A stretch of 6,125 nt of DNA, from NCBI GenBank assembly GCA_002455755.1, contig DKLL01000186.1:8283-14407 (forward strand), written 5' to 3'. The position numbers were made by a program, and so were the translations under genes. This document shows positions 1,788 to 6,125 of this stretch, one piece after another. The DNA comes from Acinetobacter sp. UBA6641. GTDB taxonomy: Bacteria > Pseudomonadota > Gammaproteobacteria > Pseudomonadales > Moraxellaceae. Positions within the stretch are counted from its first letter, which is position 1; every line of letters begins with the position of its first letter. The notes beneath the pieces are model-generated. The model saw only the letters and a list, made by a program, of their open reading frames with translations, searched no databases and had not been told where the DNA came from.

Positions 1788-2357
1788 ATGGCAATTAAGT
1801 CTGATCGTTGGATTCGCGAAATGAGCGAAAAACACGGCATGATTGAACCGTATGCAGAAAACCAGGTACGTTACGATGAAGCCGGTGAAAAACTCATTTC
1901 TTATGGTGTTTCAAGCTACGGTTATGATGTTCGTTGCGCACGTGAATTTAAAGTATTTACCAATGTGCATTCAGCAATTGTCGATCCAAAAAACTTTGAT
2001 GATAAAAGCTTTATCGATATTGAATCCGATGTCTGCATTATTCCGCCCAACTCGTTTGCCCTGGCACGTACGGTCGAGTATTTCCGTATTCCGCGTAATG
2101 TATTGACTGTATGTTTAGGTAAATCGACTTATGCACGCTGCGGTATTATTGTAAACGTCACTCCACTTGAACCTGAGTGGGAAGGTCATGTCACACTGGA
2201 ATTTTCAAATACCACCAACTTGCCAGCACGTATTTATGCGGGTGAAGGTGTGGCTCAAATGTTGTTCTTTGAATCTGATGAAGTATGTGAAACCTCTTAT
2301 AAAGACCGTGGTGGTAAATATCAGGGACAAACCGGTGTGACCTTGCCCAAAGCATAA
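1788..2357 (+). CDS. dcd: dCTP deaminase
   Basis: Deaminates dCTP to dUTP plus ammonia in the cytosol. The dUTP then feeds dUTPase and thymidylate synthase, so the enzyme supports dTTP supply. The 189-residue product has the trimeric dCTP deaminase/dUTPase-like fold motifs. These are [11 protein letters not shown] (39-49) near the N-terminus, the nucleotide-binding signature GKSTYAR (111-117, with Ser113 and Arg117), and VTLEFSN (135-141), whose Glu138 is at the position of the catalytic glutamate known from the E. coli enzyme. [10 protein letters not shown] (151-160) with Gln157 and a C-terminal KYQGQTG (177-183) follow, the latter matching the flexible tail that closes on the triphosphate. 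All key residues appear intact. [17 protein letters not shown] is, from memory, the usual Acinetobacter start. A strong terminator follows 17 bp downstream. Confidence 0.98.
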
Positions 2358-2603: not shown

Positions 2604-4610
2604 ATGACTCAGAGTTGGAATAATACAAGATTTAAAAAATCTTGTTTGGCGAGTATGCTCGCAACTTTACTTAGCCCATCAGTTTATGCGCTTGAATCTT
2701 TATCCGATAATCACCTTTCTGAAACTACCGGTGAGGGGATCGCATTATTGCCTGAAAACTTTAAAATGGTCTTTCAAGGTCCTAATGATCTTTCTACCGC
2801 CTCCAGTTATAACAATAATGCTATTGCTGCTGTAGACAAACCGAAATACGACACTGGTTTTATCCGTATTATTCCAACCGGTGAGAATTATGACCTATTG
2901 TACCAGCGTGCATACAATAAAATTTATCAAACAAATTATGATTCAGGGTATACGTATGCAAAAGCGAACTTGTATCAAGGAAGTTACGATTCAACTTATA
3001 ACACGGTATACAATGGAATTTATCAAAATGGTAGTACCACTACTACTACCTATACCACTACTTATGCTCAGGTAAAAACGCAAAATGAAACTGCATATCG
3101 TAATCAGGAAATAGAAGTTTATTATAATACAACGACATATCAGAACTATTATAATGACCGTTATGATCAATATTATAGATTAACCGAAGGCGTGAAAAAT
3201 GATGGTACAACTAAATATCCAGAAAGTACTTGGAATGCGGAAGCATCAGCTGAAAGTGCGTATAAAAATACGATAGAAAAAATTCTGATTGACAATAGAA
3301 GTGCAATTGATTTAGCAGTAAATAATCGTTTAAAAGATACTACTCTTGCTCAAATTAGAGCATCAGCAAACAGTACTGCCACCCAGCAGGCAACATCTGC
3401 AGCAAATACAACAGTCATAAATTATGCAAAAACCAATGCAACTAATGTAGCAAATACAACAGCTGCGGCTGCTATAAGCAATACCCGTACAAAAGCGGAT
3501 GTTTTTATTTATGGTTTGGCCTTATCTAAAAGTAATGGCGACTTAAATCAGCGTTATAGTAATACAGGTATATATTGGGGAAGTGCTGCTAATCCCTGGT
3601 TATTCCGTGCAGGTACAGCAAAAGACATTCAACAGTTTGCAGCTGCGAACAAGAGTGATATTGGTTATCTGGCACTAGAAGCGCCTTTGGCTAAGGATGG
3701 CGGCGACACAACAAGTGACCGAATCAAATTGGGGTTTTGGACAGATATTTTCTCTCGGTCTTTTGATTCAACTCGTACAGTTAATGCTATTAATGGTGCA
3801 CCTGCAAGCGGGTTAGATAAAGATTATCGTTTAAGATCACAATTTGTGGCGAATGGCCTGAGTATCAATGGTTCTCAAGTGCGATTATTCCAGACTCAAA
3901 ATGATGATATCAATAAGCTCTACGATGAAACACTGGGGATAGCTACACTATTACGTATAAACACCAATGATAATCCATCTACCTTAAAGTTTACCGATAC
4001 GAATCTGGATGAAAAAGGCATTCGTATCAGTACTGCAGCTAAAAGCGATACAGATGATGGTACTGCGGTAACGCCAGCACTGGATGGTTCCCTGGCTCCA
4101 CTCTTTAATGATAAAGAGGGTCTTTACTTGTATAGTGCCAATATCAACCTGGTATTGGGAAATATGTATCAACCTTTTATTCTGGCATCAGAAGGCAACA
4201 ATATCATTCTGGAAGTGACACGTATTCCTAAAGTGCCTGCCATATATTCCCAGATTTATACCTGGTATCCAGATACAGATCCAAATCCTCAATTTCAATC
4301 GGGTACAGGGCTAACAACAGCATCCTTTAAAGGTTCAACCTGTAACGTAAGTTATTGCGGCTCAAATTTTTCAGACATTACCACGGGAACCAGTACGGTT
4401 CGGTATCAGGGTACAAATGCGACGCACAGCAGTATTGCAATGGGTAGTGTTACCCGAAATACCACTACGAATCTTCTAAACGCCAATAGGGGTGCAGAAG
4501 CGACAGGGGTGGTATTTAAGAGTCCCACAGGAACAGCTGTCAATCTGGGTTCAGCTGTAATCGATGGTGTTCTGATTCAGCATCTTAAGTTTAAAACTAC
4601 GGGATTATAG
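2604..4610 (+). CDS. Large exported protein with Tyr-ladder repeats; fil/DUF6160-like
   Basis: A 668-residue protein, probably exported or surface-located. Residues 1-29 form a Sec signal peptide (basic FKK, hydrophobic core, SPSVYA cut site). The mature start LESLSDNHLSETTGEG carries the short module shared with the two following genes and resembles Acinetobacter DUF6160/'fil' pilus-system proteins. Residues 96-143 are three 16-residue Tyr-rich repeats. A Thr/Tyr tract (144-154), more Tyr-rich sequence to 191 and an Ala/Asn/Thr-rich helix-like segment (about 211-297) follow. The rest is beta-rich with aromatic, Asp- and Asn-rich stretches, and its only two mature cysteines are Cys580 and Cys585, a likely disulfide in the oxidising periplasm. 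No enzymatic motif, membrane anchor or LPXTG-like signal is seen. It heads an apparent three-gene-plus operon; its stop overlaps the next gene's ribosome binding site. A structural role in a pilus or fibre is inference. Confidence 0.85.
   Translation: MTQSWNNTRFKKSCLASMLATLLSPSVYALESLSDNHLSETTGEGIALLPENFKMVFQGPNDLSTASSYNNNAIAAVDKPKYDTGFIRIIPTGENYDLLYQRAYNKIYQTNYDSGYTYAKANLYQGSYDSTYNTVYNGIYQNGSTTTTTYTTTYAQVKTQNETAYRNQEIEVYYNTTTYQNYYNDRYDQYYRLTEGVKNDGTTKYPESTWNAEASAESAYKNTIEKILIDNRSAIDLAVNNRLKDTTLAQIRASANSTATQQATSAANTTVINYAKTNATNVANTTAAAAISNTRTKADVFIYGLALSKSNGDLNQRYSNTGIYWGSAANPWLFRAGTAKDIQQFAAANKSDIGYLALEAPLAKDGGDTTSDRIKLGFWTDIFSRSFDSTRTVNAINGAPASGLDKDYRLRSQFVANGLSINGSQVRLFQTQNDDINKLYDETLGIATLLRINTNDNPSTLKFTDTNLDEKGIRISTAAKSDTDDGTAVTPALDGSLAPLFNDKEGLYLYSANINLVLGNMYQPFILASEGNNIILEVTRIPKVPAIYSQIYTWYPDTDPNPQFQSGTGLTTASFKGSTCNVSYCGSNFSDITTGTSTVRYQGTNATHSSIAMGSVTRNTTTNLLNANRGAEATGVVFKSPTGTAVNLGSAVIDGVLIQHLKFKTTGL
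2889..3032 (+). repeat. Three tandem 48-bp repeats encoding 16-residue Tyr-ladder units
   Basis: Copies at 2889-2936, 2937-2984 and 2985-3032 encode YDLLYQRAYNKIYQTN, YDSGYTYAKANLYQGS and YDSTYNTVYNGIYQNG. Consensus: Y-D-x-x-Y-x-x-x-Y-N-x-[IL]-Y-Q-x-x. A tyrosine occupies 11 of 12 every-fourth positions; the exception is a lysine in copy 2. Copies 1 and 3 share a stretch near their 3' ends (CATACAATAAAATTTATC versus TATACAATGGAATTTATC). The unit length is a multiple of three, so copy-number change would keep the frame. Confidence 0.9.
3033..3065 (+). repeat. ACY trinucleotide tract encoding a Thr/Tyr run
   Basis: Mostly ACT/ACC codons with two TAT codons encode S-T5-Y-T3-Y directly after the 48-bp repeats. 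Slippage here would add or remove threonines without shifting the frame. It behaves like a linker or low-complexity joint in the large exported protein. Confidence 0.6.
3401..3462 (+). repeat. 14-bp direct repeat 48 bp apart in the Ala/Asn/Thr-rich segment
   Basis: AGCAAATACAACAG occurs exactly at 3401-3414 and 3449-3462, encoding A-N-T-T both times. The 48-bp offset equals the unit length of the Tyr repeats upstream. A related A-N-S-T lies 12 residues before the first copy. This suggests an older, decayed internal duplication in a helix-like region. Confidence 0.55.
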
Positions 4611-4620: not shown

Positions 4621-5307
4621 ATGTTAAATAAAATATCTATTTCTGTAGTTTTATTGATGGCTTGTGCAGCGCACGCAGAATTGGTGGGTTTAGATAACGG
4701 GGCATTACTTGAGGTTACGGGACAAGGGGGAGCTGATTTAAGCTGGACTTTGTCATTAAATCATCGCTATGCAAATGATTTAAGCATAAAAAATATTTCT
4801 GATCAGCAAGGCGTATATTATACCTATGATTGCGTATCGGATGTGCAATGCCGTTTTGCATTTTCCCCTAATAATCATGCGGATGCAGCCGGTAATCAAA
4901 GATGGCTGGTCTTTAAGCAAATTCAAGGCACTATTCAGATAGATAAGTTTTCTTTGGCGGGAAGCACGATTATCAACAAGGATATGATGCCTCAAACAGC
5001 AATGAAGCTCTCATTTTTTGATGATAAACCTTTAAAAATAAGAAATTTAGGTTTTAGTAGTCTGTCAGTTGAAACCGATGATGCAAGCTCTAAGGGTTAT
5101 TTAAAAGATATAAAATATAATCAATATAATGGTTATACATTAGATGCCCAAGGCACAAAAGTGAATAACAATATAGATGTTCCTGCTTTTGATAAAGGTG
5201 CTGAAAAAGGATTTATGGGTTTGAATGTACACGGTAATTTACATATGTCAGGTGATTTAAAAATTTTTAGTTATAACTGCGCAGGTACTGGAACCAGTCG
5301 TTGTTAA
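4621..5307 (+). CDS. Small exported protein, second gene of the fil-like operon
   Basis: A 228-residue protein of unknown function. Residues 1-19 form a Sec signal peptide with an AHA cut site. The sequence LMAC at 12-15 is a poor lipobox (Met at -2), so a soluble or assembled exported protein is favoured over a lipoprotein. The mature protein begins with the shared module LDNGALLEVTGQGG (24-37), then alternating hydrophobic/polar beta-type sequence (SWTLSLNHRY, GTIQIDKFSLAG, KPLKIRNLGFSSLSVET, GLNVHGNLHMSGDLKIF). Cysteines come in two close pairs, Cys71/Cys77 and Cys220/Cys228, the last being the C-terminal residue. Two disulfide loops are therefore likely. It lacks the catalytic motifs expected of a peptidase. 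It lies 10 bp after the large exported protein gene and 34 bp before the third gene, so co-expression is very likely. A pilus-system subunit or accessory role is inferred from context only. Confidence 0.82.
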   Translation: MLNKISISVVLLMACAAHAELVGLDNGALLEVTGQGGADLSWTLSLNHRYANDLSIKNISDQQGVYYTYDCVSDVQCRFAFSPNNHADAAGNQRWLVFKQIQGTIQIDKFSLAGSTIINKDMMPQTAMKLSFFDDKPLKIRNLGFSSLSVETDDASSKGYLKDIKYNQYNGYTLDAQGTKVNNNIDVPAFDKGAEKGFMGLNVHGNLHMSGDLKIFSYNCAGTGTSRC

Positions 5308-5341: not shown

Positions 5342-6125
5342 ATGAAAAAAATAATAAAACTGAATATGCTCACGGCTTGTGTATTAATGGCTCAACAATC
5401 TTTTGCTCTCCAGCAGTTAACGGATCACTCTTTAAGTGATGTTACGGGGCAGGATGGTATTTCTATTACACATGAAGTCTCAAAGATCAATGTAGATCAG
5501 GTCAACTGGGTGGACTATACCGATACAGGTAGCATGAAATTGGGGATGCATAATGTTGAAGTCAAAGGTGTAAATAACAGTGCAATTAAAAGTACGCTTG
5601 ATTTTGATGTAGGCACAACCGATAGAGGAACCGGAGTAAAAATTCAAGCCAGTATTTCCCCATTTCAGGCAACTGTAGAAAAAATCATGTTGTTATGTGG
5701 GGCTGCAACTTGTACCACAGCTGAACAGAATTTAGGTTCTTTGAGTCTTTCAACGACTTCTCCTTTAAAATTTTATTTGCAAACTACTCATGGTTTATTT
5801 AACCGTGATGAGAAAGCACATTTAGACTTTCAGTTACAAAATGCAAGTATTGGATATGGTTTAAACGGTAAAAATTTAACCCTAAAAGATTTTAATTTTA
5901 ATTTTTCTGCCGATGGTTACATGTATCTAGACTCAAATGAGGGAATAGTGATAACCACCAAAAGTCGTGATGGCAACACGGATCATATTGTTAATTTAGA
6001 CCGAGTGGCTGATTCAAGCGATGTAGACTCGAGTCGAGTGAATGCGAAAAATCCCGGTGTAAATATTGACTTGCGCTATGGTTCAGATCCCAATAACCAG
6101 AAGAATGTGATTCGTATGGGAGCAT
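5342..6125 (+). CDS. Exported DUF6160/fil-like protein, 3' end beyond the window
   Basis: The frame is open from the ATG to the right edge, 261 residues without a stop, so the gene is cut off by the window. Residues 1-22 form a classic Sec signal peptide (MKKIIK, hydrophobic core, QSFA cut site). The mature start LQQLTDHSLSDVTGQDGISI is the clearest copy of the module shared by all three genes and resembles the N-terminus of Acinetobacter DUF6160 / 'putative pilus system' proteins. What follows is beta-rich (MKLGMHNVEVKGV, GVKIQASISPF, LDFQLQNASIGYGL, LKDFNFNFSADGYMYLD) with one close cysteine pair, Cys119/Cys124. The later part is Asp/Ser/Asn-rich. From memory this could be the protein called FilA in Acinetobacter, but I cannot assign the letter safely. 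The role, assembly of or participation in a surface appendage, is inferred from family and context. Confidence 0.85.
   Translation, partial: MKKIIKLNMLTACVLMAQQSFALQQLTDHSLSDVTGQDGISITHEVSKINVDQVNWVDYTDTGSMKLGMHNVEVKGVNNSAIKSTLDFDVGTTDRGTGVKIQASISPFQATVEKIMLLCGAATCTTAEQNLGSLSLSTTSPLKFYLQTTHGLFNRDEKAHLDFQLQNASIGYGLNGKNLTLKDFNFNFSADGYMYLDSNEGIVITTKSRDGNTDHIVNLDRVADSSDVDSSRVNAKNPGVNIDLRYGSDPNNQKNVIRMGA

Follow-up and report, generated by a model that had tools for sequence, protein, structure and literature searches.

The tyrosine (Tyr) ladder encoded in the 6,125-nucleotide stretch of Acinetobacter sp. UBA6641 DNA analyzed here (the window) lies at the start of a 203-residue insertion in a 668-residue protein with a putative signal peptide, hereafter the ladder protein. 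We favor, with modest confidence, a reading in which the ladder opens a clade-specific insertion, predicted to be a two-helix hairpin, that is likely a variable spike on the cell surface; recombination would swap it, and the tyrosines would probably form the seam along which it packs. An earlier note, made from the window's letters, picked out the ladder and missed the clade-restricted, block-exchangeable insertion around it. The ladder protein comprises the following parts.

2604..4610, plus strand: chassis protein carrying the Tyr ladder, 668 residues, searched against Pfam and NCBIfam without a match
2604..2690, plus strand: putative signal peptide, residues 1-29, cut after Ala29 as judged by eye (basic residues, a hydrophobic stretch, ...SVYA)
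2691..2738, plus strand: short N-terminal motif LESLSDNHLSETTGEG, residues 30-45, of the type LxDxxLSxxxGQ/E, as in other exported proteins of the operon
2883..3491, plus strand: insertion domain, residues 94-296 (203 residues), a predicted two-helix hairpin, from homologue alignment, site lengths and AlphaFold2
2889..3032, plus strand: Tyr ladder, residues 96-143, the opening part of the ascending arm, from shuffles, AlphaFold2 and register statistics
3045..3179, plus strand: distal ascending arm, predicted helices 148-174 and 177-192, Tyr-rich and outside the strict register
3237..3479, plus strand: descending arm, a single predicted helix at 212-292, alanine (Ala)-rich, from AlphaFold2 and residue composition
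3492..4607, plus strand: conserved beta-rich chassis, residues 297-668, from alignment and AlphaFold2

Tyr occupies residues 96, 100, 104, 108, 112, 116, 124, 128, 132, 136, and 140 of the ladder protein, 11 of 12 slots in a 4-residue register, confirming what the earlier note had described at window positions 2889 to 3032. No shuffle reached 11 of 12, whether drawn on residues 85-200 (0 of 20,000), residues 91-145 (0 of 20,000), or the whole protein (0 of 3,000). Tyr118 falls off register, and Tyr remains frequent up to residue 191. The claim that the ladder consists of three tandem 16-residue repeats fared less well. With Tyr slots excluded, the three units gave 10 matches over their three pairwise comparisons. 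At least as many turned up in 6 of 20,000 trials when the residues other than Tyr were shuffled and in 67 of 20,000 when the twelve 4-residue blocks were permuted, which supports the repeats weakly at the protein level, the test having been picked after the pattern had been seen. DNA repeats were absent: the units have 24-28 of 48 bases in common and Tandem Repeats Finder (TRF) listed no array at the ladder. The basic period of the ladder is 4, not 16, and the 16-residue order is a weak modulation. Four homologues (P0002, P0003, P0004, and P0007) likewise fill 11 of 12 slots, hence an assembly artefact, which the note had named as grounds for rejecting the ladder, is unlikely.

The ladder-protein family was matched in 146 of the 175 Acinetobacter genomes examined. 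Aligned homologues, taken from the 120 listed out of 540, are conserved in their N-terminal and C-terminal parts and variable in between, over a stretch that in the window's ladder protein lies between residues 93 and 297. Site length was either 12-34 or 166-253 residues with nothing between (85 rows measured), and lengths did not rise in steps of 16. Among 78 loci, six (L041, L042, L056, L066, L067, and L074) yielded no reading frame by the pattern used, and the 72 classed loci divided into 28 with the long form and 44 with the short form, A. baylyi (L036) being of the short type. A quick tree of the C-terminal part, whose root was not inferred, covered the 72 loci, the window, and 16 database proteins, and fits two changes; four loci left without a measured length by a wider pattern were scored by eye for this purpose, L025 as insert-bearing and L044, L049, and L054 as short. 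The simplest history, as we read it, would be one gain and one loss, the latter in P0039, which has 18 residues at the insertion site and has kept the chassis. The insert is an extra block limited to one branch of Acinetobacter, whereas the protein itself spans most of the genus.

At the insertion site of 21 of the 44 short-form orthologues, including L043, L046, L049, L061, and L075, there is a D-x-N-x-D/N-G...D stretch, which we take to resemble the calcium-binding loops of EF-hands or dockerins. The site may therefore hold either a possible ion-binding loop or a helical insertion. The insert-bearing gene of L025, from a draft A. lwoffii genome, has a disturbed start around position 7010, which may reflect a draft error or a broken gene.

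Inserts differ greatly in sequence and keep the Tyr register. The 144 distinct insert-bearing proteins (10,296 pairs) formed 22 classes by single linkage at 60%, with eight loci that could not be split for this classing, and pairwise insert identity was as low as 21.7% over aligned columns. P0001, near-identical to the window, was excluded from the class and Tyr-lag analyses. In each of the 22 classes, Tyr pairs at lag 4 were more numerous than the mean over shuffles; pooled z scores were 21.6 at lag 4, 19.9 at lag 8, and 11.5 at lag 12, compared with about 0 at lags 7, 11, and 15. Within the first 48 insert positions, 151 of 197 Tyr fell in one register, with a spectral peak at 4.0. Individual slots were similarly retained: of the 22 classes, all had Tyr at insert positions 3 and 15, 20 had it at position 19, 18 at position 23, and 15 at position 11. 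Entropy was 0-1.2 bits at slots 3, 11, 15, 19, and 23 vs. 1.5-3.4 elsewhere between positions 4 and 28, the exception being position 6, where Leu/Ile is nearly fixed (0.44 bits). Not every slot was kept throughout; position 7 carried Tyr in 6 of 22 classes and position 27 in 4 of 22, and occupancy fell from position 31 on. The expectation that orthologues retain the Tyr spacing is thus borne out among insert-bearing proteins, in all 22 classes, and not in the 44 of 72 classed loci that lack the domain.

AlphaFold2 placed two long helices in the insert with a predicted local distance difference test (pLDDT) score of 90-98 over most of it; ten-residue means were 93-98 over residues 101-190, 90-98 over 211-290, and only 70 for 91-100. 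The ladder segment was predicted to be helical at 96-122 and 124-143, and the modeled break at residue 123 lies close to residue 120 (insert position 27), where the slot is empty. Read from the order of the helices, the Tyr-rich ascending part (96-192) appears to fold back along the Ala-rich helix (212-292). Ala makes up 22.4% of the last 48 insert residues with the 22 classes pooled and, like Tyr, repeats at lag 4 (z 11.2), while over the last 60 insert positions hydrophobic residues peak at a period of 3.9-3.95 and Ala alone at 3.8. An aromatic stripe stacked along a helix, one of the structures suggested in the earlier note, fits the predicted helix and the several Tyr columns that stay fixed while most of their neighbors vary. 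In the hairpin that we propose, Tyr side chains of the first arm would pack on small residues of the second, and such packing would let any allele fold while leaving other positions free to change. The spike would presumably face outward from the cell, where much of its non-Tyr surface could diversify under pressure from whatever binds it.

The case for exchange rests on divergent inserts within near-identical surroundings. The window and P0005 were 100% identical over the 76 residues of N-terminal chassis compared, P0005 beginning later, and 98.9% identical in the C-terminal chassis, with 49% identity in the insert; L012 (A. towneri) and P0068 were 100% identical in the C-terminal chassis and 33.8% in the insert. 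At the DNA level, L012 and L024, both A. towneri, were 85-100% identical over about 8 kb and 58-65% identical at gene bases 300-1050. In steps of 12 codons, identity between them dropped near residue 97 and recovered at 337. The L012 insert spans residues 91-336, so the right edge of the mosaic coincides with the insert end within one step. The same kind of divergent block was found in L008/L015 and L013/L033. In the reverse case, L017/L018, synonymous divergence (dS) was 0.019 in the insert vs. 0.371 in the C-terminal chassis, as would be expected of a transferred insert, and the shared stretch extends some 90 residues beyond the insert. A search for silent second copies of the L012 insert returned, at that search's sensitivity, one match each in five of six genomes and none in the sixth. 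Given this DNA mosaic we infer recombination, and since the six genomes showed no additional copy of the L012 insert, the exchange more likely involved other strains than a reshuffling inside one genome. Acinetobacter includes naturally transformable species, and homologous recombination of imported DNA would exchange the insert, most plausibly allowing escape from phages, predators, or antibodies that bind the spike.

Several observations weigh against a spike that is often exchanged and seamed by buried Tyr. Where the C-terminal chassis of a pair were 95% identical or more (1,308 pairs), only 113 pairs had inserts below 60% identity, and these 113 are non-independent; L002/L003, L005/L006, and L007/L015 showed little excess divergence in the insert. 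The ratio of nonsynonymous to synonymous divergence (dN/dS) was 0.12-0.62 in inserts vs. 0.03-0.14 in C-terminal chassis (the 16 of 18 pairs for which both were computable), raised, which counts for the spike, yet not above 1, with dS saturated in several pairs. A buried core would also be expected to use Leu, Ile, and Phe more, and tyrosines spaced at a period of 4 wind around an ideal helix, so that not all of them can face a single partner helix.

These last two points favor the main rival explanation, that the tyrosines form an exposed stripe binding a glycan, a surface, another cell, or a partner from the operon, with allelic variation tuning binding or self-recognition. The well-occupied slots (3, 11, 15, 19, and 23) hold 97 Tyr and 7 Phe of 110 residues, and Tyr outnumbers Phe by 197 to 18 in the first 48 insert positions, compared with 281 Tyr and 284 Phe in the chassis. 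Because Tyr is so strongly preferred over Phe and Leu, the exposed stripe stays a live alternative, although a specific binding face should also keep the residues between the tyrosines and these mostly vary; we judge it rather unlikely.

We give less credence to the idea that the insertion drifts fast because constraint on it is relaxed, in a protein that is periplasmic or secreted; its variety would then come from old alleles and ordinary recombination without selection for it. Insert dN/dS below 1 in all 16 computed pairs, the apparent loss of the insert in P0039, and the 1,195 of 1,308 near-identical-chassis pairs that also have similar inserts are all compatible with drift. Against it stand the lag-4 Tyr excess in every class and the L012/L024 comparison, in which divergence is confined to the insert with 85-100% identity for kilobases on either side, a pattern that drift in place does not yield. 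An amyloid-like or adhesive fiber segment, as the earlier note had also suggested, is very improbable: although Tyr, Asn, Thr, and Gln rank as the most frequent four residues in the first 48 insert positions, the model is confidently helical, no amyloid family was among the Pfam or NCBIfam matches, tandem DNA repeats were absent, and site lengths were not stepped by 16.

The closest precedent that we found for allele exchange in Acinetobacter is CarO of A. baumannii, described as a mosaic outer-membrane protein with four variants that are 80.2-83.2% identical and vary in exposed loops (PMC7733888, citing Mussi et al. 2011). CarO resembles the ladder protein in being encoded at a single Acinetobacter locus, with alleles that recombination exchanges and that vary in defined regions (PMC7733888), and the ladder-protein locus likewise shows a divergent block within near-identical sequence at one locus. 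The two differ in that the insert falls into 22 classes, in which some pairs are only about 22% identical, and forms a predicted helical insertion of 166-253 residues; the comparison is by description.

Ice nucleation proteins are also described as carrying a "tyrosine ladder," with one conserved Tyr per 16-residue beta-solenoid coil and 65 repeats in P. borealis (PMC10727499). They share with our protein a bacterial Tyr ladder and the 16-residue spacing that the earlier note had proposed. Unlike the coils so described, the ladder studied here has Tyr every 4 residues, a predicted helix, and no tandem DNA repeat; with helix predicted, no TRF array, and no Pfam match, it does not belong with the 16-residue beta-solenoid repeats. 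Hendecad and pentadecad coiled coils, both named in PMC8203680, have ratios of 11/3 and 15/4 by our arithmetic, and their helices likewise carry a stripe whose period exceeds 3.6. The Tyr period of 4.0 lies beyond both, and z was about 0 at lags 11 and 15, which places the ladder outside these classes. A partial likeness to the pentadecad is seen in the returning arm, where the Ala peak of 3.8 is near 3.75.

Should the hairpin spike be correct, an uncharacterized Acinetobacter operon encodes a variable spike with a folding rule readable from its sequence, namely that Tyr is kept at every fourth slot and most else can change. The inserts would then be a natural collection of highly divergent sequences for a single helical hairpin, the spike would be a candidate phage or immune target, and its helix-packing period would exceed the usual 3.5-3.75. 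More tentatively, and as something we would call possible rather than probable, the tetrad (period 4.0) Tyr-on-Ala hairpin may be a new helical packing, one that tolerates sequence change and so could act as scaffold to a hypervariable spike, which Acinetobacter cells would exchange like a badge to alter recognition by phages, predators, or kin.

Three further genes flank the ladder-protein gene in the window.

1788..2357, plus strand: dcd (dCTP deaminase), upstream locus marker, with a match in 74 of 78 loci
4621..5307, plus strand: next gene, 228 residues, DUF6160 below the Pfam cut-off (23.9 vs. 27 bits), with a match in 78 of 78 loci
5342..6125, plus strand: third gene, running past the end of the window, N-terminal DUF6160 match above the Pfam cut-off (51.7 vs. 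27 bits), with a match in 78 of 78 loci

The dcd product is 93-99% identical to that of the best-matching Acinetobacter genomes. After dcd and the ladder protein come two more proteins with apparent signal peptides, followed by a fourth in L002, L012, and L036; this fourth operon protein had a match in 76 of 78 loci. Matches to dcd, the 228-residue protein, and the third and fourth proteins were always on the same strand, with lowest identities of 25-29% for the last three; these counts take the best match per locus, with position checked only through median offset and strand. The ladder protein matched no Pfam family at E up to 1, DUF6160 (PF19657) included, and no NCBIfam family at E up to 0.001, FilA (NF050077, cut-off 220 bits) included. 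Its A. baumannii orthologue scored 18 bits against FilA NF050077, below the 220-bit cut-off, and the FilA-like score of the third gene was also far below the NCBIfam cut-off (46.3 vs. 220). A literature search whose coverage omits most subscription-journal papers found no paper on the ladder protein.

The DUF6160/FilA-like exported proteins of Acinetobacter are like the ladder protein in sharing its operon and an N-terminal motif of the same type after the signal peptide; they differ in that detected similarity is over by residue 57 and the ladder protein has no Pfam or NCBIfam match. Profile comparison aligned the ladder protein with the third protein at residues 6-57 only (probability 79) and with the fourth at residues 11-49 only (probability 49), covering just the signal peptide region and the LxDxxLSxxxGQ/E-type motif. 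This motif following the signal peptide, and little else, is common to the operon proteins (window 2691-2738, 4621-5307, and 5342-6125; L002 13016-14458). In the ladder protein D35, L38, T42, G43, E44, and G45 are invariant across 79 aligned rows, and the motif might serve these proteins as a shared tag for export or assembly.

In A. baumannii L001 (10266-11744) and A. nosocomialis L043 (6240-7745), a relative of the fourth protein precedes the ladder orthologue rather than standing at the operon end. The large third protein of A. baumannii L001 (14743-17193) is annotated as a "heme utilization protein," a name that looks unsupported by its Pfam matches, which are DUF6160, the only one above the cut-off, and a subthreshold carbohydrate-binding match.
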